DNA of 64,000 bases from Labia minor (taxonomy: Eukaryota > Arthropoda > Insecta > Dermaptera > Spongiphoridae), in assembly GCA_963082975.1 (NCBI GenBank), contig OY720346.1, positions 41,071,787 through 41,135,786 on the forward strand, written 5' to 3'. Below, one piece after another: positions 8,470-45,114 of this stretch. Position 1 is the first letter of the stretch. Each line of letters opens with the position of its first letter. The translations under genes were made by a program, and so were the position numbers. Below the pieces are notes generated by a model. The model saw only the letters and a list, made by a program, of their open reading frames with translations, was not told the DNA's origin and did not search any database.

Positions 8470-8548
8470 GTACCGGGACCCCGAGCCTCGGCTCGGTACT
8501 TAAGTTAAAAAAAATGATTCATTATTATTGGGTTTGGCTGGTAATATT

Positions 8549-8716
8549 AATACCTGGGACACCGAGCTGTCGCTCGACCCTTTAAAAAATATTAATCTAC
8601 AATTAATTATTTATTACAATTATTAAATGTTGCATCATTGCATCAATCTGATTAAAATGAATTGAACTGGGGTCCTCAATAATACAAACAAACAATTTTA
8701 GCTAGCATAATAAGAT
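8549..8716 (-). mobile_element. Small complete rolling-circle-like unit inside the composite
   Basis: Runs from a hairpin end (ACCGAGCTGTCGCTCGACCC) to the shared 5' terminus TAGCTAGCATAATAAGAT at about 8702-8716. At ~165 bp it has both termini of the family and no internal coding. The same unit is present at 27313-27475 and 41008-41175. Confidence 0.55.
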
Positions 8717-9246
8717 TAATCCAAGTAATATCGTCTATTTCTATTCGACACTATTTTCAGTTATGAAATGAACAGTCAGTAGAGAGTAAAAAAATTGTAA
8801 TTGAAGACCGTTGTTTTTAAAAATAATTAAATTATTTTATAGATTATAAAATAAAAATTATTGTATTAACATTAAAAATATTGAAATAAAAAAATAATAG
8901 TTTGATTTAATAAACTAAAATATTATAAACATTTTTAATGTGAATTTCTCAGGGAGGTAGGGAGCCCAATTCATTTAACCATCCATGTTGTATAAGGAAT
9001 CTTAATTTCTTAACACTCCGTTTTTTCAAATTTAAAATAGAGGGAGAGAAAGAGTTTCAATTATATTCGAATAGTCTATATATTCTATATATGAGTATTT
9101 TTTTTTTCTGAATTTAATACCAAGTTGATTTTCAAAATTTTCTATTCTTTATGCATATGATTGATTACATGTGTTAAAATTTAAACAAATTCAAATATTC
9201 TAATTTATAAATTTATATAAAATTTAATATTATTTTTTCGAGACTA

Positions 9247-9360
9247 ATGGCAAATACCGGTGGCCCTAGTCAGAGCAAGAGAAGACTCCTTTTGGTAGCG
9301 GCCCAGTCGATGATGTTATATGGATCGGAGATTTGGGCTTTACAACTATATTTTAAGTGA
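9247..9360 (+). pseudogene. Reverse-transcriptase C-terminal remnant (non-LTR)
   Basis: The plus strand reads ANTGGPSQSKRRLLLVAAQS then MLYGSEIWA, the pattern that follows the catalytic core in R1/LOA-like non-LTR reverse transcriptases. Only about 35 codons remain. Identical scraps occur at 26660-26785 (-) and 41705-41815 (+), so the fragment was carried along by the composite element. Confidence 0.6.
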
Positions 9361-9741
9361 AAAAATGATTTCTTGGTTATATAAAAATTAAAATATGATT
9401 CTTTATATCTTTATTATACAGAAAAGTAGGCGTGTTAATATAAAATATATACCTGGGACACCGAACTATCACTCGACCCTTTAACCAATTTATACAATTT
9501 ATTTTTATATACTTTAAAAATTTTACAATTTTTTAATTATTTATTATAATTGTTAAATGGGATTTCTAAAAATGACCCATTAAAAATTTGTTTCCTAAAA
9601 TGTTTCAAATTAATTAAAATAAATTGTATAAATGTTCATTTATAAAATCTATATATCTGTGAGTTTGTTTTTCGATTTTTTAAATTTTGATTTTGGATTC
9701 GATTAGAGCTTAAAATGTGTAAATGTAAAGTGGTCTTGGTT

Positions 9742-9945
9742 TTTATCACGTTTTTCTTAGCTTGCTTTCTTGTTTATCTGTTCGGATCAAATCTTGCAAT
9801 CGAAATTTCGACCACTTCCAGTCATCCAATCGCTCTGAAACTTTTCAGAGTTATGTATTCTGGATGACAATACAATAAAATAACACATTCGTAGCTTGCA
9901 AGTGATTAATTAGAGCATAATTAATGAATATTTGTATTTTGTTAA
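9742..9945 (+). repeat. Direct repeat, left copy
   Basis: Starts at CACGTTTTTCTTAGCTTGCT and matches 11050-11258 almost exactly, except for a variable GTTT array. The interior contains CGAAATTTCGACCACTTCC and CAGAGTTATGTATTCTGG. Confidence 0.85.
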
Positions 9946-9947
9946 CT

Positions 9948-10080
9948 TAAAAAGGAGAAACAATAATAATACAACAAAAGGCCCTTTCCAAAACTTACCT
10001 TTCTCAATACATAATACAAAAGAAGAAAACAACAAAAGGGACTTTGTCAAAACATTAAAAATAAATAATACAGATGTCCA
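9948..10080 (+). repeat. Ghost copy of the F-box locus left arm
   Basis: CAATAATAATACAACAAAAGG and the neighbouring CTTACCTTTCTCAATACATA parallel 2965-3030. Similarity fades beyond ~10080. Confidence 0.6.
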
Positions 10081-10279
10081 TAGTCCGCTTGTTTAAAAAA
10101 ATATTCAAGAGTTGATTCTAGTATGTATTAAATATATTCAATATATTAAATATTAAATATATTATTTTTGATCTAAACGAATAGAGAATGGATTTTACAT
10201 AAAATTTGTAATCATTTCACAAATTAATAATATAATAAATGACACATTGTGAATTGACGATAAAAATAAATATATTTCA

Positions 10280-10440
10280 TTAGATCTTATTTTATTATAC
10301 TAGCAAAAATTGTATAAATATATTTTTAATTTTCTTTCGAAATTAATTAAAAAATTTTAAAATATTTTAAATATAAAAAATATTGATACAATATCTAATA
10401 CAAAAACGAGGCGGGATGCAAATATAATACATTAATTAAT
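10280..10440 (+). mobile_element. Fragment related to the composite element's 5' region
   Basis: TTATTATACTAGCAAAAATTG followed by the A+T-rich TTTCGAAATTAATTAAAAAA block parallels 25098-25390 and 25800-25930 but is clearly diverged. Confidence 0.5.
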
Positions 10441-10854
10441 AATAATAATCAAAATATTAAAATCCGTTTAAATAAGAAGTTTGAAAAAATGTTCAGGTCG
10501 CTCCCCTCCAACTAAATGACAGTCCTGATCGTATGTTCCATGCTGCGAATTAAATTTGGATTAAGCATCATAAATTCTAAAATAATAATTAAATAAATTT
10601 CAAATAACGATTAGATATTTATTAAATGAATTACTAATAAATAATATTCAATCTAATGAAATAAAGAATCTCTATATATTATATACACGGTAAATGTATT
10701 AGAAAAAATAAAAAGCCATTTTTTTTTTATGAAGAATTTTGATTTTTTTAAATTATAATTTCTGACTTTTGATTGATTACATTTAAAATCATTTTAAAGT
10801 TATAATTTCGTCTTTACAAAGAGAGATAAAAAATTAATAAAATCAAAATATTGA

Positions 10855-11050
10855 AAAAATATAATAGGGAGGTAGAAAAAAGGTTCAAACTCCCCTCTTC
10901 TTATTTTTACTTAACGGGTCTTCTGATTGGTTGCCTGTTTCGACACACCTTTTTTCGACTTAAACGCCACCCTCAATTTCCTTCAGCTATCATTTGCTCT
11001 CTGCATCTCACCAAGTCATCATTAGCACTCTTGCTAACTGAGTGTATTTT
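10855..11050 (+). pseudogene. Ghost 5' flank of an F-box gene copy, coding part missing
   Basis: Parallels 3256-3430 over ~175 bp (GGAGGTAGAAAAAAGGTTCA, then TTCTGATTGGTTGCCTGTTT and CTCTGCATCTCACC). Similarity ends where the direct repeat (11050) begins. No F-box or LRR codons follow, so only the presumed promoter of a former second gene survives. Confidence 0.65.
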
Positions 11051-11258
11051 ACCACGTTTTTCTTAGCTTGCTTTCTTGTTTGTTTGTTTGTTTATTTATC
11101 TGTTCGGGTCAAATCTTGCAATCGAAATTTCGACCACTTCCAGTCATCCAATCGCTCTGAAACTTTTCAGAGTTATGTATTCTGGATGACAATACAATAA
11201 AATAACACATTCGTAGCTTGCAAGTGTTTAATTAGAGCATAATTAATGAATATAATTT
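11050..11258 (+). repeat. Direct repeat, right copy
   Basis: Near-identical to 9742-9945, with extra GTTT units around 11082-11100. Confidence 0.85.
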
Positions 11259-11605
11259 TGTATGGGAAAATCAAAACAAAAAGTGTAAATATTTAAATTT
11301 GAAAAAAACCGTTAAAAACCCGTTAAAAGAATAATATAATATGTATAATATTTAAAATGTAAATAAATTTGAAAGAAGGTATATTAATGTTTTGTACTGT
11401 AATTTAGAAAACAAAATTTAAATTTATGAGTTTTAGGCAATAAAGAATTAAAATATGACAAATTTAAAAATTTCTCTTTATAATTCAATTTAAATTTATT
11501 ACTTTCAGGATAATAGTATTTCATGACTATTAAAGTCAATCAAAAAACTTAAAAGTAGTATAGGTCAAGTGAAATCGATTGCAATATATGAAGACTAAAA
11601 AGTAG

Positions 11606-12466
11606 AAAATAATACTTTATATAAAAAAAAAACTTTTTTAAAAAACCACGTTTTTAACGCACTAAAAAGAAGAAAATAATTTTTCTGAAACCCCATAGGT
11701 ACTGACATTACAAACAAGAGATATGATTTGAAGAAAATTTTCTATAACGTAAAACGTGGGGCGCAACTATGGCTAAAATATTCTGTATCGTATAAAAATT
11801 TATAAATAAATGTTATTAGGTACAAATTAATAGGATAAATGAATTCATATTTTAATTAGCTTCAAAAAGTAAAGCTTATAACTTATCGAAATTTTTAAAA
11901 GAGGTAAATTTAATTTATGAAAAGATTACCTTTAGATTACTAATAATATTCACTTTTAAAAAATTCTGATAAAAAATGACATCCTAACAATATTCTGGTA
12001 AATAATATAAGAAATTTAACTTGAAGAAATCTAAAACTAAATTTTGCTACTGCAAAACTTCTAGCAAATATTTAATATTTATGTTAATAAAATTTCTAAA
12101 GTGTAAATTGAAGATGTTTATTTAATATTAAGGAATTAATTTTCCAAAAAAAATTTACATTAATAAAAGTATTCTGTTGGATTACTAATAATATTCCCTT
12201 TTACAAAAAGTCTGGTAAAAAATATAAAACTTAAAATATAAATCCATGGATATTGAAATAAATTAATCAAAGAAATTATATTGCATTTAAAAAATTTATT
12301 ATTATTTGCGCCCCACGTTTTACGTTATAGAAAATTTTCTTCAAATCATATCTCTTGTTTGTAATGTCAGTACCTATGGGGTTTCAGAAAAATTATTTTC
12401 TTCTTTTTAGTGCGTTAAAAACGTGGTTTTTTAAAAAAGTTTTTTTTTTATATAAAGTATTATTTT
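11606..12466. mobile_element. Foldback/MITE-like element with ~160 bp terminal inverted repeats
   Basis: 11606-11765 and 12305-12466 are nearly perfect reverse complements. The outer end reads AAAATAATACTTTATATAAA and the inner end contains AACGTAAAACGTGGGGCGCAA. The ~540 bp interior is A+T-rich and non-coding. Superfamily is unclear: no diagnostic target-site duplication was found. Confidence 0.75.
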
Positions 12467-12705
12467 AAAATTCGTTTGGGAACATGGTCAAATCGGCAGT
12501 CAAAGTTGAAAATTCCCCATATATTATAACTACTGTAATTAGTATTATTATAATGTAAAATTATAAAGAAAAAATGTTTAGACATTATTATAGACATTTT
12601 CATTCTGTAAATTAAATAATTTTATTTCATTTAAATAAATATCTATTTTTAAATATTTTTTTCTCTCTACATTATTTATCTAATTCTCACAATATATTAA
12701 GATCA

Positions 12706-13651
12706 TACCGGGACCCCGAGCCTCGGCTCTGTAATTAAGTTAAAAAAAAAAAATTCATTATTATTGATAAATATATATCGTAATTTATAATTATAAAATA
12801 TTATTAAAATATATATTTTTAATTTTATTTCGAAATTAAATAAAAAATTTTAAAATATTTTAAATATAAAAAAAATATATATTTTTAATTTTATTTCGAA
12901 ATTAAATAAAAAATTTTAAAATATTTTAAATATAAAAAAAATATTAATACAATATTCTTTAAAAAAAGGCGGGAGTCAAATTTCAATATAAATGTCATTT
13001 GTGATGTCATCAATATATAAATTAATAATAAATAATATTAATAAATATTAAATTTAATAAAAGAACAATGAATAAATAAATATAAAATAGTAATTTATTA
13101 AAATGTAAACAATAGATAAAAAGAAAAAAAATAACAAATTCATTATTTTCATTTTCATTTTTAAATAACGATTCACCCGGCGAGTTTCGAACCGACGAAA
13201 TCCACTCGTTAAAACATCTCTCTAGCCACTGTACTATATATGTTTAGATAAAAAATTGTCATTTTTTTACTGTCTTAGCAGGCAGATTTGATGTTTTTTA
13301 TTTTATTTTTTTTTTTTTTGAGAGAGATTAATAAATATCTATATATATTTTATTAAAAATAAATATTTTTAATTTTATTTCGAAATTAAATAATAAATTT
13401 TAAAATAAAAAAAAATATTAATACAAATAAAAATGGAGGCCAATTTTGACGTTTTCCATATATAATTTTCAATTAAGAAATTAATAATGAAGCTGAATGT
13501 TTCAAGAGATATCATCAATAAAACTTAATTTTTCTTTATAAATACTATATCTAGTGTGAATTTGAAAAAAATCGTTAGAGCGGTTTTTGAGAACCAATAT
13601 ATATAGATAGATAGATATATACAATTTTAGCTAGCATAATAAGATAAGATG
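12706..13651 (-). mobile_element. Rolling-circle-like unit at the 5' side of the composite
   Basis: Extends from a hairpin end (CCGGGACCCCGAGCCTCGGC) to the TAGCTAGCATAATAAGATAA terminus, with (GATA)n near the 5' end at ~13605. Contains a tandemly doubled ~62 bp A+T-rich block (about 12795-12950) that is doubled in copy 2 but single in copy 3. Confidence 0.6.
13176..13250 (-). other. tRNA-like segment inside the composite element
   Basis: The reverse strand reads GTGGCTAGAGAGATG..., then GTCGGTTCGAAACTC, resembling tRNA A- and B-box regions. Acceptor-stem pairing is not evident, so this is a tRNA-derived (SINE-like) relic rather than a functional tRNA. The same segment is present in copies 2 and 3. 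Confidence 0.45.
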
Positions 13652-15773: not shown

Positions 15774-16641
15774 ACACCCACTTTGTTTATCTACACTTTG
15801 ACGATTAAACATGAATCAAATTTTAGATTGTTTTATCATTATTAGTATTAGTATTATACTCACTCTCTTTTCTGTTTATCTTTCATTAAATTAATTAATT
15901 TCCATTTATGTCTCATTGAATTTATTTGTAATATCAAAATATCTTTAATTAAAATAAAAGCATCATTGTAAAATTGATTTAAAAGAATTTGTTTAAAGTC
16001 CAAAAAAGGAAAGATTTAATTTTCAATTAACCAAGAATTCATTATTATAATCCATTTATTTATTTTTCCAAATGAGGAGAAAATAAAACAAATGAATGAT
16101 CAAATAGTTTTTGTAATTTAAAAAAAAAATACTTGTATTTATAATAATTTAAAATAAAAATGCAATGAAAAAAATTTTAAAAATAAAGAAATAATTTAAG
16201 ATAATTATTGCCGTAAATCAATCAACTATTTAATTTTATCAACATTCAGTCACCGATAACTGGCTTCTTGTTTACAATTTCATATTCAACATTCACTATG
16301 TCATACGTAACACATTCGGACTAGATTCTGATAATTTTATTTAAACTGATTTTCCTGAAAAAAAAGCGGATTTTTATTTTATTTTATATAATTATAATTA
16401 TTATTATTGTTTTTTTAAATCAGATTTTTTCATTAAATCTTGGATTTTTTTTCTAATAACTTCTCTAAAATAAAAAAGTTGGTCAAAATATCTCCACTTA
16501 CCCATTTTTGTTTAAATGACAATTTTTGAATTTTGTATGCTCTTATTTAAATATAGATGATACAAAATGATTGATTAAACATCAACAATTTCAGTTATTA
16601 TGTATATAATTTCTTAAAATAAAAGTCGTATAGAAAAAAAT
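15773..16641. other. A+T-rich stretch, no gene seen
   Basis: Only poly-A/T runs and short TTA arrays. Confidence 0.5.
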
Positions 16642-17248
16642 CTGGAGTGTCTCCACTCGACTATCTCGCAAATTTGAATTGGATTAAATAACATATATTA
16701 TATTTAAATTAAATTTAATTAATTATAAATTTAATTAAAATTAATAAATAATATTTATTAAATCAGCGTGTGTTGGTCTCTTTGTTGATGGCACCACGTC
16801 ACGTGCTGGAGCGTGATTTGCAGTGTTAAAAAATTAATTCCTGTACTGTCAGCGATTCAATCAAACTGAAATTCGATATATAGCAGTTTTATACAATTTC
16901 TAATCATGTGAAAAACTATCAAGCATATATTTTTATTTTTACGTCCAGTTTAGAGGGAAAAAAATGAAAACGTGGTAGGTAATAATAAATGATCCGGATG
17001 ATCTACGTTTCTCAAAAGTTGATAGAAAACTACGAATTTTGAATAATGTCCGTGTACCAAATTTCATTATTCTAGCTCAAACCGTTTTTGCATAATCTTG
17101 TTTAAATACACACACACACACAGAGACAGACATTTTTCTCAACCTTACTTAGTGAAAATGACTCAGGAACCTTCAAAACGTATAAAAACATCAAAATCTC
17201 GACATCGAAAATTTTCGTGATCGCAATACTTTCTTTGGCGAGATAGTA
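16642..17248 (-). mobile_element. HL-A repeat, copy 2
   Basis: Full length: hairpin end CTGGAGTGTCTCCACTCG, subterminal ACTATCTCGC, internal (CA)n at ~17107-17120, and closing GGCGAGATAGTA. Similar to 2230-2811 throughout. The hairpin (3') end is at the low-coordinate side. Confidence 0.8.
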
Positions 17249-18060
17249 AGGATTGAAAAGCTCTTTCCTAATAAATCAATATTTACTTCTGAACGAATGA
17301 ATCAACAAAAATACAATTTAAATTCTAAATTGCTTCAAGACAACTGATTTCCTAATACGAACAAACTATAAACAAAAGATATATCTTCATAAAAAAATAA
17401 ATTTCATCTTCAGTGAAAATAAATAGATTGGCTTCGGTATCCTGAAATACAATTTAATCATACTTAATAGAATTGCTCAATTCCATAGTATGTTTAATGT
17501 TATATTAATCTTATTTACTTTGTCCTATACCTAATATTTATTTATTCTCCCTATCGCGTAAATTGGTACATTTAAGATAATAAAATTTACATCTCTAATT
17601 ATTAGTGAAGTTTAATCATTTAAAATTTTAAATATTTATTATTTAATTAAAATAATATTCATTATTAAATACTTTTAATGATTTTTCTAATATTTTACAA
17701 ATGACGACAATTTGAAAATAAAATCCCTCTGGCTATAAATTCTACTAATCCATAATTTCTCCAACATTTATGAAAAGAGAAAATGCCTTCTAGGTATTTT
17801 TGCATTATTTCATCATAATTAGATTAGAATCTTAATATTTACCATTGTTAAATTAATTAATATTTGTTCTTTCTTAAAATGAATTAAAATTATTTTTTTC
17901 AAAATTGTTTGATTTGTTAATATTTTGAAAAAAAATTGTGTGTGGGATTTTTTCTTAACGAACTTAATTATAAGAAATCAGATACTAATAAATTCATTTA
18001 TTATTAATTAATTTTTTATAATTAAAATCTAAAAAATAAATCTCATCTAACTTTGTGATA
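17249..18060. other. A+T-rich stretch, no gene seen
   Basis: No exon-like or repeat-like structure recognised. Confidence 0.45.
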
Positions 18061-18415: not shown

Positions 18416-18619
18416 TATCTAACCGATTTGTGAATATCATTAAACAGTAAAATCCAAGTATGCAGTTTTGATTTTTACTTTAGTCGAATCAATCAAAATA
18501 TTATATACTAAATGCTTATTTAAGTTAAAAAATATATATAAATATATCTTATTATAATAAAACCATAAACTTGTTGTTATGTTTATATGCTCTTTTCATG
18601 AATGTGTATTACTCTTATT

Positions 18620-19222
18620 ACTATCTCGTAAGAGATAGTATTGCGATCACGAAAATTTTCGATGTTGAGTTTTTGATGTTTTTATACGTTTTGAAGGTCC
18701 CTGTGTCATTTTCACTAAGTAAGGTTGAGAAAAATGTCTGTCTCTCTGTGTGTGTGTATTTAAACAAGATTATGCAAAAACAGTTTGAGCTAGAATAATG
18801 AAATTTGGTACACGGACATTATTCAAAATTCATAGTTTTCTATCAACTTTTGAGAAATGTAGCTCAACTGGAAGAGGGTCATTACCTACAACGTTTTGAT
18901 TTTTTTTCCTCTAAAGTGACCGTAAAAATAAAGCTATATGTTTGATAATTCTCCACATGATTAATAATTGTATAAAACTGCTATATATAGAATTTGAACT
19001 TGATTGATTCGCTGAAATTACCAGAATTAATTTTTTAACACTGCAAATCTCACGCGCCAACACGTGACGTGGTGCCATCAACAAAGAGCCAAACATGCAC
19101 TGGTTTAATAAATATTATTTATTAATTTTAATTTATAATTTAATTAATTTAATTTAATTTAAATTAATGTATGTTTTTTAATCCAATTCAAATTGCGAGA
19201 TAGTCGAGTGGAGACACTCCAC
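18620..19222 (+). mobile_element. HL-A repeat, copy 3
   Basis: Inverted relative to copies 1 and 2: starts ACTATCTCGTAAGAGATAGT (hairpin-capable 5' end), then TTGCGATCACGAAAATTTTC and a (TG)n tract, and ends GTCGAGTGGAGACACTCC. Open frames within it are incidental. Confidence 0.8.
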
Positions 19223-19439
19223 CTTTTTTTTAATTAAAAATAAATAAATCTATTTTGTTTTGTTTTTTGAAAATTAAATTTCAGTTAAATTTAAATCGAT
19301 ATATTAAAATAAAACTTTATATTCAGATCAGTCTGGATATTCTTTTGCATGAAAAAAAAATGAGACAATATTAAATTCCAATTGAAGTTGAATATAATTC
19401 TGGGCATAATTGTGCGGAATGCACAATCGGAGAACAAAA

Positions 19440-22194: not shown

Positions 22195-24130
22195 TATCCG
22201 CTGGTTAATATAATATTATAGATTATTTACTTTCTTAAAATATCAATTTTTTAAATGAAATTAAATAATACTTGGGGTGTCCCATAAGTTTCTTCCCTTT
22301 TTTTGATGCGAAATGAATACAGGATATTTGTTGTTTAATGTTGATTTATTATGTTATAAATGAAGCATTCTGTTCTATAACCTTCTTCCATCTCCCAGGA
22401 AGCCTCATTATGCCCTTTTTCTAAAATAGTTGAGGCTTACTTTCAAAATATTCATTTAGGTGCGTTTTTATTTCGCTGATGGATTTGAAAGATTTACTAC
22501 GGAGAGAGTTTTTTAAGGAGAGTAATAATCGGATGGAGGAAGATATGGGTAATATGGAGGATGAGGTAGAACGTCCCAATCAAACTGTAATAATTTTTGC
22601 CTTACGGTCAACGCAATAAGCGGCCTTGCGTTGTCTTGATGGAATACGACACCGCGTCGGTAACCAATTCTGGCCGTTTTTCTACTATGGCGGCTTTAAG
22701 TTGATTCAGTTGATTGTAATATTTGTCAGCATTGATCATATCACCTTCAGGAAGGAGCTCGTAGTATAGTACACCCTTCCTGCCCACCAAATGAACAAAA
22801 GAACCTTCTTCGGATGAAGCCCAGGCTTCGCAACAGTTGAAGGTCTATTTTCTTTAGACCAAATGCGTTTTCGATCCACATTTTGATACAAAATCCAAGT
22901 CTCGTCTCCACTGACAAGACTTTTTAAGAAAGGATTTCTTTCGAGTCGCTGAAGAAGCAAATCGCACGTAGAGACGCGCTTCATAAGGCCAGTCTCCGTC
23001 AATTGGTGTGGAACCCAAACTTCATATCGATTCGCATATCCCATCTTGATTAAATGCTTATGTACCGTTGTTTTGGGGATGTTAGTAGCATCCGCTATCT
23101 CGGGCACACTGTATCGTGGATTTTCAGCAAGCACATCCTTGATAATGTCCGTATCCGTCGCTGCTGGGCAGCCGCTGCGGTCTTCATCTTTCAACTCAAA
23201 ATTACCAGCTCTAAATTTCTTAAAACAATTGCGGACGGTCCTAATAGTCGTAGCACCACTCCTATAAACGGTGTAAATCTCATCTGCAGTGTCCTTTGCA
23301 TTATTCCCTTTTTTAAAGCAATAACATACATAACATACCGCAAATGATTCTTTTGGCTCTCCATATGAAACGGTGTAGAAACAATTTTAAAAGAGACTTT
23401 GTCACCAACAAAACGAACTCTGAAAAAGCTCTGGGACGACTGAAGCCGATGCCATAAACGGCTAAGAAATAAGTCTGCATGTTTATATATATATATATAT
23501 ATATATAAACATAGGCAGTTAGAGTCATTCATAACGTGACGCGGAAAAAACTTATGGGACAATCTAATATTTACAATTAAAAATTTAATTTATAAACTAT
23601 TAATTCAAAATAAATCATTAAAAAGTTTGTTTAAAATTAAAAATAAGTATAAATATTTTGGTTTACCTTTTTTTGAATTATATTTATCATTTATAATTTA
23701 TAAAATTAAATTGAAATAGTATTACTTTTTTAAACCAAAATTCTTTTTGTGTTTTCTTATAAGAAAATTACCGTAATATTCATTTCTTTGAAATTATATT
23801 TTTTCTCTTTTTTTTTGCTGATAATGTTTAAATTTTTATTAATTGAGAAATATTATGGTTATTATTATGACAATTGTATTTATACATACATTGATTAAAT
23901 CAATATGTCTCCATAAACATCCATAAACATCTTTACTCTTCTTTTATATCAATGTCGTATATATCGTATATGTATATATATTCATTATTCATTACAATTA
24001 CCTCAATTCGATTTTCAATATTTTTTCAGCAATAGAAAACTAATATTTTTTTTTATAAAAGTAAGCTCTAACTAAAAAAAAATCGTTTAATATGTGATAT
24101 CCTAGGAAATTTTTCTTATTATTACTATAA
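22195..24130 (+). repeat. Tandem duplication, unit 1 (with mariner inside)
   Basis: Outside the mariner (22271-23564), this segment matches 24449-25091 in the same orientation: ATAATATTATAGATTATTTAC, AATATTTACAATTAAAAATT, TTCTTTTTGTGTTTTCTTAT and ATATCCTAGGAAA blocks occur in the same order. Unit 2 lacks the mariner; unit 1 lacks the composite element found at the end of unit 2. Confidence 0.75.
22271..23564 (-). pseudogene. mariner transposase pseudogene and element
   Basis: A mariner-type element with termini GGGGTGTCCCATAAGTTTCTT and AACTTATGGGACAATC, flanked by TA. The transposase reads on the minus strand. A central block of ~150 codons is intact (paired helix-turn-helix region, then LVSGDETWILYQN with the first catalytic Asp). 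The following parts (QDNARPL..., then PYLPPSDYYS for the second and third Asp) are in shifted frames, and the N-terminal part near 23300-23560 is broken by frameshifts and a TA microsatellite. So it is non-autonomous and inactive. The family is established; the subfamily is not. Confidence 0.9.
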
Positions 24131-24448: not shown

Positions 24449-25091
24449 TCATCCGGTGGTTATAATATTATAGATTATTTACTTGATTAAAATGTAAATT
24501 TTTTGAATAAAATTAATTAATATTTACAATTAAAAATTTAATTTATAAAATATTAATTCAATATAAATCAATAAAATGTTTAAATTTAAAAATATAAATA
24601 TTTTGGTTTACCTTTTATTTTTCAAATTATTTATTTTATATAATTTATAAAAATTAAATGGAAATAGTATTACTTTTTTAATCCAAAATTCTTTTTGTGT
24701 TTTCTTATAAGAAAATTACCGTAATATTCGAATAATTTCTTTGCAATTCTTTTTTTTCTTTTTTTTTTTTTTGCTGATAATGTTAAAATTTTTGTTAATT
24801 AAGAAATATTATGTTTATTATGTTAGTTGTATTTATACATACATTGGTTAAATTAATGTCTCCATAAGCGTAGAAGGTATAAATCCAATAACATATATCT
24901 TCACTTTTATTTTATATAAATGTCGTATATACATATATGTAGGTATATATTCATTATTCATTACGATTACCTCAATTACTTTTTCAACATTTTTTCAGCA
25001 ATAAAAACTAATATTTTTTTGTAAAAGAAAAATCTAACATGGATAATGTACAAAAAAATCATTTAATATGATATCCTAGGAAACTTTTCTT
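24449..25091 (+). repeat. Tandem duplication, unit 2 (mariner-free)
   Basis: Same order of landmarks as 22195-24130. At the mariner site it reads AAATTAATTAATATTTAC, the empty site. It is interrupted at 25091/25092 by composite copy 2 and resumes for a short distance at about 28247 (TTATTACTATAAGCAATAATT). Confidence 0.75.
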
Positions 25092-28000
25092 ATCTTATCT
25101 TATTATGCTAGCTAAAATTGTATATATCTATCTATCTATATATATTGGTTCTCAAAAACCGCTCTAACGATTTTTTTCAAATTTACACTAGATATAGTAT
25201 TTATAAAGAAAAATTAAGTTTTATTGATGATATCTCTTGAAACATTCAGCTTCATTATTAATTTCTTAATTGAAAATTATATATGGAAAACGTCAAAATT
25301 GGCCTCCATTTTTATTTGTATTAATATTTTTTTTTATTTAAAATATTTTAAAATTTATTATTTAATTTCGAAATAAAATTAAAAATATTTATTTTTAATA
25401 AAATATATATAGATATTTATTAATCTCTCTCAAAAAAAAAAAAATAAAATAAAAAACATCAAATCTGCCTGCTAAGACAGTAAAAAAATGACAATTTTTT
25501 ATCTAAACATATATAGTACAGTGGCTAGAGAGATGTTTTAACGAGTGGATTTAGTCGGTTCGAAACTCTCCGGGTGAATCGTTATTTAAAAATGAAAATG
25601 AAAATAATGAATTTGTTATTTTTTTTCTTTTTATCTATTGTTTACATTTTAATAAATTACTATTTTATATTTATTTATTCATTGTTCTTTTATTAAATTT
25701 AATATTTATTAATATTATTTATTATTAATTTATATATTGATGACATCACAAATGACATTTATATTGAAATTTGACTCCCGCCTTTTTTTAAAGAATATTG
25801 TATTAATATTTTTTTTATATTTAAAATATTTTAAAATTTTTTATTTAATTTCGAAATAAAATTAAAAATATATATTTTTTTTATATTTAAAATATTTTAA
25901 AATTTTTTATTTAATTTCGAAATAAAATTAAAAATATATATTTTAATAATATTTTATAATTATAAATTACGATATATATTTATCAATAATAATGAATTTT
26001 TTTTTTAACTTAATTACAGAGCCGAGGCTCGGGGTCCCGGTATGATCTTAATATATTGTGAGAATTAGATAAATAATGTAGAGAGAAAAAAATATTTAAA
26101 AATAGATATTTATTTAAATGAAATAAAATTATTTAATTTACAGAATGAAAATGTCTATAATAATGTCTAAACATTTTTTCTTTATAATTTTACATTATAA
26201 TAATACTAATTACAGTAGTTATAATATATGGGGAATTTTCAACTTTGACTGCCGATTTGACCATGTTCCCAAACGAATTTTAAAAAAACCAAGACCACTT
26301 TACATTTACACATTTTAAGCTCTAATCGAATCCAAAATCAAAATTTAAAAAATCGAAAAACAAACTCACAGATATATAGATTTTATAAATGAACATTTAT
26401 ACAATTTATTTTAATTAATTTGAAACATTTTAGGAAACAAATTTTTAATGGGTCATTTTTAGAAATCCCATTTAACAATTATAATAAATAATTAAAAAAT
26501 TGTAAAATTTTTAAAGTATATAAAAATAAATTGTATAAATTGGTTAAAGGGTCGAGTGATAGTTCGGTGTCCCAGGTATATATTTTATATTAACACGCCT
26601 ACTTTTCTGTATAATAAAGATATAAAGAATCATATTTTAATTTTTATATAACCAAGAAATCATTTTTTCACTTAAAATATAGTTGTAAAGCCCAAATCTC
26701 CGATCCATATAACATCATCGACTGGGCCGCTACCAAAAGGAGTCTTCTCTTGCTCTGACTAGGGCCACCGGTATTTGCCATTAGTCTCGAAAAAATAATA
26801 TTAAATTTTATATAAATTTATAAATTAGAATATTTGAATTTGTTTAAATTTTAACACATGTAATCAATCATATGCATAAAGAATAGAAAATTTTGAAAAT
26901 CAACTTGGTATTAAATTCAGAAAAAAAAAATACTCATATATAGAATATATAGACTATTCGAATATAATTGAAACTCTTTCTCTCCCTCTATTTTAAATTT
27001 GAAAAAACGGAGTGTTAAGAAATTAAGATTCCTTATACAACATGGATGGTTAAATGAATTGGGCTCCCTACCTCCCTGAGAAATTCACATTAAAAATGTT
27101 TATAATATTTTAGTTTATTAAATCAAACTATTATTTTTTTATTTCAATATTTTTAATGTTAATACAATAATTTTTATTTTATAATCTATAAAATAATTTA
27201 ATTATTTTTAAAAACAACGGTCTTCAATTACAATTTTTTTACTCTCTACTGACTGTTCATTTCATAACTGAAAATAGTGTCGAATAGAAATAGACGATAT
27301 TACTTGGATTAATCTTATTATGCTAGCTAAAATTGTTTGTTTGTATTATTGAGGACCCCAGTTCAATTCATTTTAATCAGATTGATGCAATGATGCAACA
27401 TTTAATAATTGTAATAAATAATTAATTGTAGATTAATATTTTTTAAAGGGTCGAGCGACAGCTCGGTGTCCCAGGTATTAATATTACCAGCCAAACCCAA
27501 TAATAATGAATCATTTTTTTTAACTTAAGTACCGAGCCGAGGCTCGGGGTCCCGGTACTATCAATTATGACCTTTATGTGCAATACATCGACTTCCCTGG
27601 TCTTTTAATACTATATTTTTGTAAGTTGCGCAAATTTATGAAATAGGATTAGTTTTCAACTGCTTTTAGCTGCATTTAACTTTTATCATATAATTTTGAT
27701 AAAAATTAAATAGGTAACCACTTACTCGGCGGGACGTAGCAATTGATGTACCCATTACATCTCTTATATGGGATATAAATGTGTATACAATTACATATAT
27801 TTATATGAATAGTACAATTTGAATATGGTTTAAACAGGGATATTATTTTATAATCGTATACACATTTATATTGCCATTTTTTATATTAACTTCCTTCAAT
27901 ACATTGAAAAATAACGAGAAATTTAATTTTAAACTGGCTTCTGAGACAGAACACCTCAACATGTTTGGCTCTTTGTTGATGACACCACGTCACTTGCTGC

Positions 28001-28246
28001 TGCGTGATTGGCAGTCAACGTGTTAGAAAATTTAACAATACCTCCCTTACTATCGTCAGTCGGTAAAAATATAATTCCGGTTCGTTGAGCGATTCAATCA
28101 AGCTGAAATTCTCTATATATAGCAGTTTTATACAATTTTTAATCTCTGGCGAGATAGTATAATGTATCTTATAATGTCAAAACCCAATAATAATGAATCA
28201 TTTTTTTTAACTTAAGTACCGAGCCGAGGCTCGGGGTCCCGGTACT
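25092..28246 (+). mobile_element. Composite rolling-circle-like element, copy 2
   Basis: Begins ATCTTATCTTATTATGCTAG and ends at the hairpin CCGAGGCTCGGGGTCCCGGTA (28222-28244). Comparing the tandem unit without it (24100-24135) shows that the host reads CTT/ATTACTATAA across the site, so both boundaries are defined to within a few bases and no long target-site duplication exists. Four earlier hairpin terminators lie inside, at 26010-26042, 26547-26576, 27447-27475 and 27528-27559. The last ~65 bp (28181-28246) repeat 27496-27560. The 27561-28180 segment is extra relative to copy 1 but shared with copy 3. Confidence 0.8.
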
Positions 28247-34445: not shown

Positions 34446-34560
34446 GTAAAGAATTTAAAGAAATTTTGAAAAATTATTAAATCCAAATATAAATAAAAAA
34501 CAATCTTGCAAAAGGAAATTATCCAAGGGGAATGTCAAGATACGAATATTAACCCTTTTT

Positions 34561-35157
34561 ACTATCTCGTAGATAGTATTGCGATCACGAAAATTTTCGA
34601 TGTTGAGATTTTGATGTTTTTATACGTTTTGAAGGTTCCTGAATCATTTTCACTAAGGTGGAGAAAAATGTCTGTGTGTGTGTATGTGTGTATGTATGTA
34701 TGTAACCAAGATTACGCAAAAACGGTTTGAGCTAGAATGATTAAATTTGGTACATGAGCATTATTCAAAATTCGTAGTTTTCTATCAACTTTTGAGAAAT
34801 GTAGCTCAACCGGAAGAGGGTCATTACTTATAACGTTTTGATTTTTTTTTTCCTCTAAAGTGACCGTAAAAATAAAGATCTATGTTTGATAATTTTTCAC
34901 ATGATTAATAATTGTATAAAACTACTATATATAGAATTTCAGCTTGATTGATTCGCTGAAAATACCAGAATTAATTTTTTAACACTGCAAATCTCACGCG
35001 CCAACACGTGACGTGGTGCCATCAACAAAAAGTCAAACATGCGGTGGTTTAATAAATATTATTGATTAATTTTAATTTATAATTTAATTAATTTAAATTA
35101 ATGTATGTTATTTAATCTAATTCAAATTTGCGAGATAATCGAGTGGAGACACTCCAG
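34561..35157 (+). mobile_element. HL-A repeat, copy 4
   Basis: Complete: ACTATCTCGTAGATAGTATT start, TTGCGATCACGAAAATTTTC, a TGTATGTGTGTATGTATG tract, and end GATAATCGAGTGGAGACACTCC. It lies in the intron after 34445. Confidence 0.8.
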
Positions 35158-35325
35158 CTAATTTAAAATGGGAAACAAACCGATTGCTTTCAAAACTATT
35201 GTTTACAAGTACCTATTTAAGAGTATAAAATATAAAGGAGGAGTGATATGATATTAATGAACAAAGAAATTAACTAGTTTTTTAAATTAAAATTAGATTA
35301 TAAAAACAGTATATGTTTTATAAGT

Positions 35326-39119: not shown

Positions 39120-39470
39120 AAGTCCCTGAGGATCACGCAGAGTTTTTTTAATTAACACACTATGAGCGGGGCGGGTATTTGTACCCGTTGCGGGGACTGC
39201 CACTTATAAGCGGGGCGGGTATTTATACCCGTTACCACTTATATAATATATATTTTCCCTTGTGTCACTTAAATTTACTTATTTTAAACGATAACTAATA
39301 TATATCCCTTATATAAGTGGCCACGGGTATAAATACCCGCTCCGCTTATAAGTGGCAGTCCCCGCAACGGGTACAAATACCCGCCCCGCTCATAGTGTGT
39401 TAATTATTGAATTTCCCTAGACCCGAGCTAGAGTCTTCAGTGTGGTAGACAGTCGTGCTAACTTTTTTAA
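39120..39470 (-). mobile_element. tRNA-derived SINE, interrupted by a piggyBac-like MITE
   Basis: Its flanks (CCCTGAGGATCACGCAGAG before, ATTGAATTTCCCTAGACC and TCTTCAGTGTGGTAGACAG after) match the uninterrupted copy at 54221-54345. Read on the minus strand, the head resembles a tRNA (GTGGTTTAGTGGTTAGC-type A-box in the better copies). Confidence 0.6.
39156..39399. mobile_element. piggyBac-like MITE, almost wholly palindromic
   Basis: About 90 bp terminal inverted repeats, near-perfect, start CACACTATGAGCGGGGCGGG, with internal GGGTATTTGTACCCG palindromes. Flanked on both sides by TTAA (39152-39155, 39400-39403), the piggyBac target. Non-coding; GC-rich against A+T-rich flanks. Confidence 0.85.
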
Positions 39471-40305: not shown

Positions 40306-43300
40306 TTGACATTATAAGATACATTATACTATCTCGCCAGAGATTAAAAATTGTATAAAACTGCTATATATAGAGAATTTCAGCTTGATTGAATCGCTCA
40401 ACGAACCGGAATTATATTTTTACCGACTGACGATAGTAAGGGAGGTATTGTTAAATTTTCTAACACGTTGACTGCCAATCACGCAGCAGCAAGTGACGTG
40501 GTGTCATCAACAAAGAGCCAAACATGTTGAGGTGTTCTGTCTCAGAAGCCAGTTTAAAATTAAATTTCTCGTTATTTTTCAATGTATTGAAGGAAGTTAA
40601 TATAAAAAATGGCAATATAAATGTGTATACGATTATAAAATAATATCCCTGTTTAAACCATATTCAAATTGTACTATTCATATAAATATATGTAATTGTA
40701 TACACATTTATATCCCATATAAGAGATGTAATGGGTACATCAATTGCTACGTCCCGCCGAGTAAGTGGTTACCTATTTAATTTTTATCAAAATTATATGA
40801 TAAAAGTTAAATGCAGCTAAAAGCAGTTGAAAACTAATCCTATTTCATAAATTTGCGCAACTTACAAAAATATAGTATTAAAAGACCAGGGAAGTCGATG
40901 TATTGCACATAAAGGTCATAATTGATAGTACCGGGACCCCGAGCCTCGGCTCGGTACTTAAGTTAAAAAAAATGATTCATTATTATTGGGTTTGGCTGGT
41001 AATATTAATACCTGGGACACCGAGCTGTCGCTCGACCCTTTAAAAAATATTAATCTACAATTAATTATTTATTACAATTATTAAATGTTGCATCATTGCA
41101 TCAATCTGATTAAAATGAATTGAACTGGGGTCCTCAATAATACAAACAAACAATTTTAGCTAGCATAATAAGATTAATCCAAGTAATATCGTCTATTTCT
41201 ATTCGACACTATTTTCAGTTATGAAATGAACAGTCAGTAGAGAGTAAAAAAATTGTAATTGAAGACCGTTGTTTTTAAAAATAATTAAATTATTTTATAG
41301 ATTATAAAATAAAAATTATTGTATTAACATTAAAAATATTGAAATAAAAAAATAATAGTTTGATTTAATAAACTAAAATATTATAAACATTTTTAATGTG
41401 AATTTCTCAGGGAGGTAGGGAGCCCAATTCATTTAACCATCCATGTTGTATAAGGAATCTTAATTTCTTAACACTCCGTTTTTTCAAATTTAAAATAGAG
41501 GGAGAGAAAGAGTTTCAATTATATTCGAATAGTCTATATATTCTATATATGAGTATTTTTTTTTTCTGAATTTAATACCAAGTTGATTTTCAAAATTTTC
41601 TATTCTTTATGCATATGATTGATTACATGTGTTAAAATTTAAACAAATTCAAATATTCTAATTTATAAATTTATATAAAATTTAATATTATTTTTTCGAG
41701 ACTAATGGCAAATACCGGTGGCCCTAGTCAGAGCAAGAGAAGACTCCTTTTGGTAGCGGCCCAGTCGATGATGTTATATGGATCGGAGATTTGGGCTTTA
41801 CAACTATATTTTAAGTGAAAAAATGATTTCTTGGTTATATAAAAATTAAAATATGATTCTTTATATCTTTATTATACAGAAAAGTAGGCGTGTTAATATA
41901 AAATATATACCTGGGACACCGAACTATCACTCGACCCTTTAACCAATTTATACAATTTATTTTTATATACTTTAAAAATTTTACAATTTTTTAATTATTT
42001 ATTATAATTGTTAAATGGGATTTCTAAAAATGACCCATTAAAAATTTGTTTCCTAAAATATTTCAAATTAATTAAAATAAATTGTATAAATGTTCATTTA
42101 TAAAATCTATATATCTGTGTGTCTGTTTGTCGATTTTTTAAATTTTGATTTTGGATTCGATTAGAGCTTAAAATGTGTAAATGTAAAGTGGTCTTGGTTT
42201 TTTTAAAATTCGTTTGGGAACATGGTCAAATCGGCAGTCAAAGTTGAAAATTCCCCATATATTATAACTACTGTAATTAGTATTATTATAATGTAAAATT
42301 ATAAAGAAAAAATGTTTAGACATTATTATAGACATTTTCATTCTGTAAATTAAATAATTTTATTTCATTTAAATAAATATCTATTTTTAAATATTTTTTT
42401 CTCTCTACATTATTTATCTAATTCTCACAATATATTAAGATCATACCGGGACCCCGAGCCTCGGCTCTGTAATTAAGTTAAAAAAAAAAATTCATTATTA
42501 TTGATAAATATATATCGTAATTTATAATTATAAAATATTATTAAAATATATATTTTTAATTTTATTTCGAAATTAAATAAAAAATTTTAAAATATTTTAA
42601 ATATAAAAAAAATATTAATACAATATTCTTTAAAAAAAGGCGGGAGTCAAATTTCAATATAAATGTCATTTGTGATGTCATCAATATATAAATTAATAAT
42701 AAATAATATTAATAAATATTAAATTTAATAAAAGAACAATGAATAAATAAATATAAAATAGTAATTTATTAAAATGTAAACAATAGATAAAAAGAAAAAA
42801 AATAAGAAATTCATTATTTTCATTTTCATTTTTAAATAACGATTCACCCGGAGAGTTTCGAACCGACGAAATCCACTCGTTAAAACATCTCTCTAGCCAC
42901 TGTACTATATATGTTTAGATAAAAAATTGTCATTTTTTTACTGTCTTAGCAGGCAGATTTGATGTTTTTTATTTTATTTTTTTTTTTTTTGAGAGAGATT
43001 AATAAATATCTATATATATTTTATTAAAAATAAATATTTTTAATTTTATTTCGAAATTAAATAATAAATTTTAAAATAAAAAAAAATATTAATACAAATA
43101 AAAATGGAGGCCAATTTTGACGTTTTCCATATATAATTTTCAATTAAGAAATTAATAATGAAGCTGAATGTTTCAAGAGATATCATCAATAAAACTTAAT
43201 TTTTCTTTATAAATACTATATCTAGTGTGAATTTGAAAAAAATCGTTAGAGCGGTTTTTGAGAACCATGATATATAGATAGATAGATATATACAATTTTA

Positions 43301-43321: not shown

Positions 43322-43470
43322 TGATCATCATAGTATAACAAAGGAGAGAGCAGAGAACCTGAATAAATATCGCAAAAATGCATTTTAACTCATTGATTTA
43401 TTTTCATCGATGAAATATCGCAAAAATATCAACCATGATATTAAGTAAAATTTGAATTAGGCTCATTTTT

Positions 43471-44040
43471 ACTATCTCGCCAGAGATAGTATTGCGATCA
43501 CGAAAATTTTCGATGTTTTAATACGTTTTGAAGGTTCCTGAATCATTTTCACTAAGGTTGAGAAAAATGTCTGTGTGTGTGTATGTATGTAGACAAGATT
43601 ACGCAAATACGGTTTGAGCTAGAATGATGAAATTTGGTACATGGACATTATTCATAATTCATAGTTTTCTATCAACTTTTGAGAAATGTAGCTCAAGCGG
43701 AAGAGGGTCATTACCTACAACGTTTTGATTTTTTTTCCTCTAAAGTGACCGTAAAAATAAAGATATATGTTTGATAATTTTTCACATGATTAATAATTGT
43801 ATAAAACTGCTATATATAGAATTTCAGCTTGATTGATTCGCTGAAATTACCAGAATTAATTTTTTAACACTGCAAATCTCACGCGCCAACACATGACGTG
43901 GTGCCATCAACAAAAAGCCAAACATGTGCTGGTTTAATATTTATTATTTATAATTTATAATTAATTAAATTTTTTAATATAATATATTTTGTTATTTAAT
44001 CCAATTCAAATTGCGAGATAGTCGAGTGGAGACACTCCAG
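43471..44040 (+). mobile_element. HL-A repeat, copy 5
   Basis: Complete: ACTATCTCGCCAGAGATAGT start, GTGTGTGTGTATGTATG tract, hairpin end GTCGAGTGGAGACACTCCAG. Lies in the intron of the CFAP73-like gene. Confidence 0.85.
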
Positions 44041-45114
44041 CTAATTAATTTTTTAAAAACAAACAATATTATGAAAAAAATTTATTATGATGTTAAACAT
44101 GTAATTTATAACAAATTTAAAATAATAGTGGACTCTATATAATTAATGTTAAATTAATGTTGTTATATTTGTTGTTATATTTATTGTTATATTTGTTGTC
44201 ATATGAGTTACTTTGTTTTTCTTGAAATTACATAATTTCCTACTTATTATAAATCTCTCCATTGTCCACAAGCTATAGGAGGGACTTAATATAAATAAAA
44301 TATTTTAGAAGAACAAGAATAGATTTTTATGATAAAACAAATATCCCTCTTTTATCCTTCAAATAAAATACGTAAATTCAATTTAAAGTTATAAATAAAT
44401 TGTATATTAAATATTTTTTTTTATTTAATTTAAATCAATTTCTTCTAAAATAAATAATATTATAATAACTGAATTGTAATCACTTATAGTATATATATAT
44501 ATATATATAAAAGTAATGGTATTATTGTACCATACATTAAGTATACCTCTATAATATCAATATTAACATTTGTTATTTATAATGTTTAGTGTAAATGAAG
44601 TCAAATGGTTTTGATTTAAAGATATTACTTTTCATCTATTTTCACCTCTCAATATTTAAAATATATAACTTTATATATATAACTAATATAAATCTTTTTT
44701 AAATCCCTTTTATATCTAATCTCTATATTTTCCTCATATTATAAAAAAATCCACAAGTATTATTAATTATTTTTATATATACAGAGAGATTAGCGAATTA
44801 ATAATAATAATTTTCCCCTTCTCTAAGATAAAATAAATAAATATTAAATAAAATTTTTTTTTAATTCACTAACCCCTTTGAATGAATGTGTTTATTTAAA
44901 ATTAAAACATTTTTAACCACCAGTTAGTGTATATAAATATACATATATATATAAGATTTTTTTTTCATTATTCTAATTAATTGACCTCCTATTTATCTAA
45001 ATAAAGTAATATTATCCTAATCCAATCACATACCATAATATTTTCAATAAATCGTATCCTTAAACTCTCTTTAATTCCCTCATTTCCTTAATCGAATATT
45101 TATTCCGTTAATAC
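44041..45114. other. Intronic A+T-rich DNA
   Basis: A TA microsatellite at ~44489-44510 and short TTGTTATATT repeats near 44160-44200. No exon recognised. Confidence 0.45.

Follow-up and report, generated by a model that had tools for sequence, protein, structure and literature searches.

Stacked 3' terminators in a Helitron-like transposon of Labia minor, with repair from a neighbouring copy as the favoured source of the last one

Background

How a mobile element comes to carry five of its own 3' terminators in a row is the question raised by a 64,000-nucleotide stretch of the Labia minor genome (assembly GCA_963082975.1, contig OY720346.1, forward-strand positions 41,071,787 to 41,135,786), hereafter the window, whose own numbering is used below. 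An earlier note, made from its letters, described at 25092..28246 a rolling-circle-like element with five hairpin terminators of one design, and read the chain as what repeated read-through would leave, each skipped terminator adding flanking DNA. The matter bears on a wider debate, since the pickup and spread of adjacent DNA by Helitrons has been ascribed either to bypass of the end or to break repair that inserts filler DNA; in the present family, signs of bypass and of repair can be followed at base resolution.

The window has a G+C content of 26% and contains a mariner piece, a DUF4200 gene fragment and, by eye, LINE-like scraps. It also holds five copies, 84-93% alike, of a 600-bp repeat (2224-2817, 16634-17249, 18607-19224, 34547-35163 and 43465-44046) with a 5' palindrome TGGAGTGTCTCCA, inverted CTATCTCGC/GCGAGATAG near the ends and a 3' hairpin; to judge from these features, this family looks like a Helentron-type non-autonomous element.

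Results

The element and its ends

The unit with five terminators (copy 2) occupies exactly 25093-28245 on the plus strand, one base inside the earlier bounds on either side; it begins with TC, ends with GGTAC, and lies between a host A (25092) and a host T (28246). Its empty site is provided by two adjacent repeats, 23565-24119 and 24518-25093, which are 82.5% alike: the position homologous to the insertion point, 24118/24119, reads ...TTTTCTTA|TTATTACTATAA..., so that copy 2 carries all of 25093-28245 between A and T, with no duplication.

A search of the 604-Mb assembly gave 7645 candidates, of which 40, ranked by similarity to copy 2, were scored; 37 of these, copies 2 and 3 among them, run from the first to the last base of the element. 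The start is A^TC in all 37 and the end GGTAC^t in 36, the exception (L012) being GGTAT^t; A precedes the start and T follows the end in 37 of 37 (for copy 2 the end listed is its internal fourth terminator, the fifth being likewise followed by T). The three remaining places (L068-L070) are truncated on the 5' side, and L068 also ends in GGTAT. Both ends match exactly in 35 copies (not in L012 and L057), with T as the next base in 35/35; the pattern used for this comparison includes the preceding A, so only the junction reading of the 37 copies tests that base. The 35 full copies other than copies 2 and 3 stop at query positions 2468-2486 of 3155, the fourth terminator ending at 2467, and among the 37 the alignment goes beyond it in copies 2 and 3 only. 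The standard mobile unit is thus the 2466-bp composite 25093-27558 (plus strand), spanned by 37 of the 40 scored places; as copies were ranked by likeness to copy 2, shorter forms are under-sampled.

The element is a non-autonomous transposon of the rolling-circle (Helitron-like) kind, present in many copies, with a 5'-TC, a 3'-GGTAC behind a short palindrome and an A/T target. On this point the earlier reading stands: the empty site and the copy junctions agree with a rolling-circle anatomy, the 5' end is fixed at a^TC in all 37 full copies, and the longer units are mobile themselves, composites recurring across the genome. ATCT repeats (a microsatellite) lie near the 5' end. No RepHel was found among the eight scanned of the 32 window open reading frames of at least 90 aa, and the end patterns had no match in the viral and genome contig collections scanned, from which the window's own genome is possibly absent.

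Two further copies lie in the window, both on the minus strand. Copy 1 (8470-13649) does stop at the fourth terminator, at 8470, where copy 2 runs about 620 bp on to a fifth, as had been noticed. It carries a 2.7-kb insert at about 9745-12459, in which we see a piece with 164-bp inverted arms and, at 10291, a degenerate 5' end that belongs to this Helitron-like family. Copy 3 (43320-40928), absent from the earlier note, is an ordinary element ending at the fourth terminator, in a form shorter by 66 bp, and it is this copy that decides the question of the fifth terminator. Near it, at 39149-39406, is a palindrome, long but imperfect (over 262 columns it is 85% self-inverted).

An RT scrap and a tRNA-like piece had been listed among the DNA gained; what remains of them is a resemblance by eye, for a Pfam search at E<=1 gave no family for the former (26671-26817, minus strand), and the latter yielded no tRNA gene call. 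In an alignment of 38 copies the tRNA-like piece (25505-25534) shows clustered differences, with three main haplotypes (26, 5 and 3 of the 38 rows), a block that looks as if it had been swapped or rewritten in a single event.

Five terminators of two designs

The motif GTCCC..GGTA with a preceding inverted repeat is indeed present at five sites of copy 2, all on the plus strand and here called T1 to T5. The sites are, however, of two designs and not one. Type A, with the loop CGAG and CGGTA[C], comprises T1 (26015-26042; weakened stem, GGTA without the final C), T4 (27529-27558; GGTAC, the usual 3' end of the composite) and T5 (28216-28245; GGTAC, then T). Type B, CCCAGGTA, comprises T2 (26549-26578; imperfect stem) and T3 (27449-27477; a stable hairpin). 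Identity is 79-93% within type A, 76% within type B and 55-66% between the two. Both strands of the window contain 13 terminator-like sites, whereas dinucleotide shuffles gave one site in 21 of 200 cases and more than one in 0 of 200. As for the hairpins, inverted repeats precede all five sites, but T3 alone, folded as single-stranded DNA, is clearly better than its shuffles (only 4/200 equal it); shuffles fold as well in 27/200 cases for T4, 27/200 for T5, 55/200 for T2 and 112/200 for T1. The T4 palindrome, CCGAGC-CGAG-GCTCGG, is 16 nt long and stands 11 nt before the 3' end. Rfam gave no match at gathering scores.

T1 to T4: probable nesting and bypass

The composite can be divided into two parts, an element of 950 bp that runs from 25093 to T1 and a mini-element of 246 bp (27313-27558, plus strand); the 1.27 kb between them includes an older terminator, T2. 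The division comes from a second 5' end inside the composite, at 27313 after an A, by which 27313-27558 looks like a complete mini-element ending in T3 and T4. We had considered that the unit starting at 27313 ended at T3, and dropped this because a simpler relative (L012:4574-5193), with the same 5' end, finishes in a T3-T4-type pair and GGTAC^T, so that the end is T4. Since T3 and T4 are paired in relatives, T3 is not a separate step.

Longer chains occur in relatives sampled from sites that lack the final C. In one of them (L074+L081) the terminators number six, arranged as three B-A pairs. The A of the second pair is homologous to T1 and is followed by 138 bp shared with the window; L073+L079 is alike, the same scan finding five terminators in it. 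Two others (L071/L080 and L076/L082) have an additional 81-bp T4 module in tandem. The simpler relative L012:4574-5193 carries the degraded B partner of the second pair of L074+L081, and therefore ends at a T1-like site. Copies ending at each of the terminators, as the ladder would have it, were only partly seen: there are ends at a T1-like site and at T4, and none at T2 or T3 in a sample where short forms are under-represented. Independent units, each with its own 5' terminus, were the alternative expectation, and this too holds in part: 27313 is such a terminus, and no hidden 5' end above shuffles was found in the T1-T2, T2-mini-element and T3-T4 intervals or in the stretch that follows T4.

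Hairpins 1 to 4 fit nesting and bypass. The 950-bp element and the mini-element would have come to lie side by side or nested; a transposition from the first 5' end would then have run past the three terminators without a final C (T1, T2 and T3) and ended at T4, after which the whole T4-ended composite would have been amplified. A stepwise history is likely across the family as a whole. The five-step ladder of read-through proposed for copy 2 itself is not upheld, given that the standard unit ends at T4, that T3 and T4 form a pair, and that T5 is better accounted for by repair.

The missing C

T1, T2 and T3 read GGTA|T, and T4 and T5 read GGTAC|T. Over the genome, 4220 exact type-A sites are followed by CT and 601 by T and a base other than G, reversed controls giving 0; sites of the T1 type (GGTATG) belong to neither list. 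Within the first 12.73 Mb of contig 1, where cases come from few lineages and are not independent, 8 of 13 C-less sites have, on their own strand, a C-bearing site no more than 500 bp downstream; of 100 C-bearing sites, none has a further listed site that close (1 has one within 1 kb and 5 have one within 5 kb). Twelve C-less sites were read individually: nine are internal, of which four were classed from the 20 bases that follow, and three are apparent true ends. The idea that all such sites are internal, which came from the first eight (8/8; downstream DNA read for L071, L073, L074 and L076 with L079-L082, the other four being those judged by 20 bases), was abandoned when the next four turned out to be one internal site and three apparent true ends. 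The C is missing in 2 of 40 ordinary copies read; in one, L068, GGTA is followed by TATAAATT, the last C being apparently missing, and this may be a fresh C-less end.

In maize, the model of internal ends is CTAT against CTAG for real ends, and an intact CTAG was missing in 99 of 100 sampled internal ends (PMC3288121). For Helraiser, a change of the hairpin loop was about equivalent to deletion of the hairpin, and exchange of the stem kept about 90% of activity (PMC4778049). We propose, as a tentative suggestion of our own that has distinctly less than an even chance of being right, that the final nucleotide at the 3' end of a Helitron could act as a stop switch, whose loss (GGTAC to GGTA; in maize CTAG to CTA) would blind the terminator and leave it to seed composites. 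The final base missing from internal ends, both in this family and in maize, offers a one-base test of how Helitrons stop.

The DNA between T4 and T5

Beyond T4, copy 2 continues with a stretch, H (27559-28179, plus strand), that contains a 540-bp dispersed repeat (27605-28144), and then with the T5 module (28180-28245, plus strand). H recurs as the 3' flank of copy 3 (40306-40927, minus strand): 27559-28180 and 40306-40927 are identical letter for letter over 622 bp. The T5 module is identical (66/66) to the T4 module at 27493-27558, that is, to the final 66 bp of an ordinary element, and copies 2 and 3 diverge exactly where it begins. The stretch common to both past T4 stops at no hairpin. 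When H was used as a query, 40 of 4484 candidates were scored; copies 2 and 3 matched at 100% and the rest at 77-85% over the dispersed repeat, plus short pieces, with no further exact copy among these 40. The bases that follow T4 in copy 3, TATCAATT, are similar to those following other copies; on a straightforward reading copy 3 ends at T4, and H looks like its ordinary flank. We had also considered that copy 3 has an end of its own, without hairpin, at 28180; we dropped this, as it needs a chance coincidence with the border of T5, and T4 is where the 35 remaining full copies end.

Descent of copy 2 from copy 3 by read-through predicts that the two share the haplotype of copy 3. The two are identical over 26427-28180, and every difference lies upstream of 26427. 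At 25184 copy 2 has T, with 15 of 37 others (16 of 38 rows), and copy 3 has C (22 of 38 rows). A 9-bp deletion found in copies 3 and 1 is not in copy 2. The 66-bp-short form of copy 3 is likewise absent from copy 2; among 40 scored of 3379 candidates, 34 other near-full copies, judged by their length of 2395-2412 bases, are consistent with it. Seven substitutions of copy 3, absent from copy 2, recur jointly in L066 and L067, which overturned our view, formed on 20 copies, that they were private to copy 3. Forcing copies 2 and 3 together in the tree of the 5' part costs 4.70 lnL (AU p 0.0335, just below 0.05, with a bootstrap that is not settled). As far as these variants tell, the 5' part of copy 2 comes from a lineage other than that of copy 3, and after this comparison across genome copies we gave up copy 3 as the direct parent of copy 2. 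There are no informative variants in 26431-27558, so the switch point, and the role of copy 3 as template there, depend on H.

Copy 3 is, for its part, a mosaic. Three of its five best matches (L087, L088 and L090, all of the short form) have the majority state at 26357-26426 and lack four of its seven substitutions; the one of these three that was read at the 5' end lacks two more and has the majority state at 25144-25145; and in the 5' tree copy 3 is not grouped with L066/L067. These matches and the tree placement show that gene conversion operates in the family.

Discussion

Taken together, the 5' lineage of copy 2, which is not that of copy 3, and the start of T5 at the very point where the two copies part make repair the better explanation of the extension from T4 to T5, which is probably not a read-through step. 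We think that copy 2 would have started out as an ordinary insertion ending at T4, and would then have suffered a break close to its 3' end. Repair would have used copy 3, at a distance of 12 kb, as template, with synthesis passing through the T4 of that copy and some 620 bp of the adjoining flank; the newly made strand would then have been joined to the last 66 bp of copy 2 itself, with about 1 nt of homology, one common A (GTCAA/AAACCC). T5 would thus be the original terminator of copy 2, T4 and H having been inserted ahead of it by copying. To this reading, which includes bypass for T1 to T4 of the composite, we give a probability of about 0.58.

The most serious competitor keeps read-through as the origin of H: copy 2 would come from the locus of copy 3 by transposition that ran about 620 bp past T4, T5 would arise by slip-back or by tandem duplication of the T4 module, and the 5' half of copy 3 would be converted later. 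Much here is reasonable, since H does adjoin T4 in copy 3, read-through is documented for Helraiser (PMC4778049) and mosaics are present in the family; gene conversion of copy 3 after a bypass could have occurred, and the 66-bp-short form could have a new origin by loss of one tandem unit. Yet this scenario requires three events against one for repair, and it has to explain why copy 2 has the T at 25184 (with 15 others) and neither the short form, nor the 9-bp deletion, nor the seven substitutions of copy 3; we therefore consider it rather improbable, without dismissing it. Less credible again is an increase in terminator number through local tandem duplication together with unequal exchange of 3' modules rather than through bypass. 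The extra 81-bp T4 module in tandem in L071/L080 and L076/L082 speaks for such exchange, but in the composite T1, T2 and T4 are kept apart by DNA unlike the module and by an internal 5' end.

The ladder in its full form, with five successive bypasses that each gained flank and a new hairpin, agrees with the fixed 5' end, with the relative that terminates at a T1-like site and with the several internal terminators of other relatives. Against it stand the pairing of T3 and T4 in relatives, the 5' end that the mini-element has of its own at 27313, the better account that repair gives of T4 to T5, and the failure to see copies ending at T2 or T3 among copies picked by score; we regard it as still less likely than exchange of modules. 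Finally, one could imagine a retroelement on the opposite strand, whose constant end would be the 3' tail (ATAAGATAAGAT) and whose variable ends would be 5' truncations, and it is true that one end is constant and the other variable, with short repeats at the constant one. The empty site of copy 2 without target duplication, on which we dropped this idea, and the far end, fixed precisely in 36 of the 37 full copies, leave it hardly any credit.

Comparison with known systems

Set against the canonical Helitrons (Helitron1; Helraiser of bats, PMC4778049), the element shares the 5'-TC, the A/T target (insertion without duplication, at one empty site, that of copy 2), a palindrome that stands about 11 nt before the 3' end, and read-through of that end; the palindrome of T4 falls within the 16-20 bp, placed 10-12 nt from the end, that define Helitron1. 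It differs in its 3' end, GGTAC in 38 of 40 scored copies and GGTAT in 2, where theirs is CTAG or CTRR, and in the weak palindromes of T1 and T2. Lacking CTRR, it is best filed as Helitron-like with a variant end. That a Helitron end can vary is indicated by the insect Hel1 Helitrons, which are short, start with TC, use an A/T target and end in CTRY (PMC6544945); compared by description, GTAC differs from CTRY at the first base, and capture in Hel1 is internal. The 3' palindrome, the short non-autonomous forms and the microsatellite near the 5' end recall Helitron2, Helentrons, DINE-1 and HINEs (PMC5148889, PMC4067079), but these insert in T-rich or TT targets, and the element of the window, by its junctions and its empty site, between A and T. 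Nor does that empty site show the target-site duplication of non-LTR retrotransposons and SINEs.

Part of the history outlined here is already known. Helitrons with several terminators and stepwise capture are on record from maize (PMC3288121), and stepwise growth with capture of filler DNA through break repair has been proposed for insect Hel1 (PMC6544945). For repair that adds a working terminator we found no published title, in a literature judged from titles and passages. A close likeness is with the maize helA Helitrons (PMC3288121), 28.7% of which have multiple 3' termini (helitron_mc2 has three), with a nested-element origin proposed. As here, there are several 3' ends per mobile unit and the internal ends lack the last base; the termini and the host are others, and the passages available from that study describe no repair step like that from T4 to T5. 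Composites with stacked terminators are then one trace of how Helitrons spread the DNA next to them, and repair from an identified neighbour, which seems to have put a working end, with some 620 bp of flanking DNA, in front of the old one, would be another.
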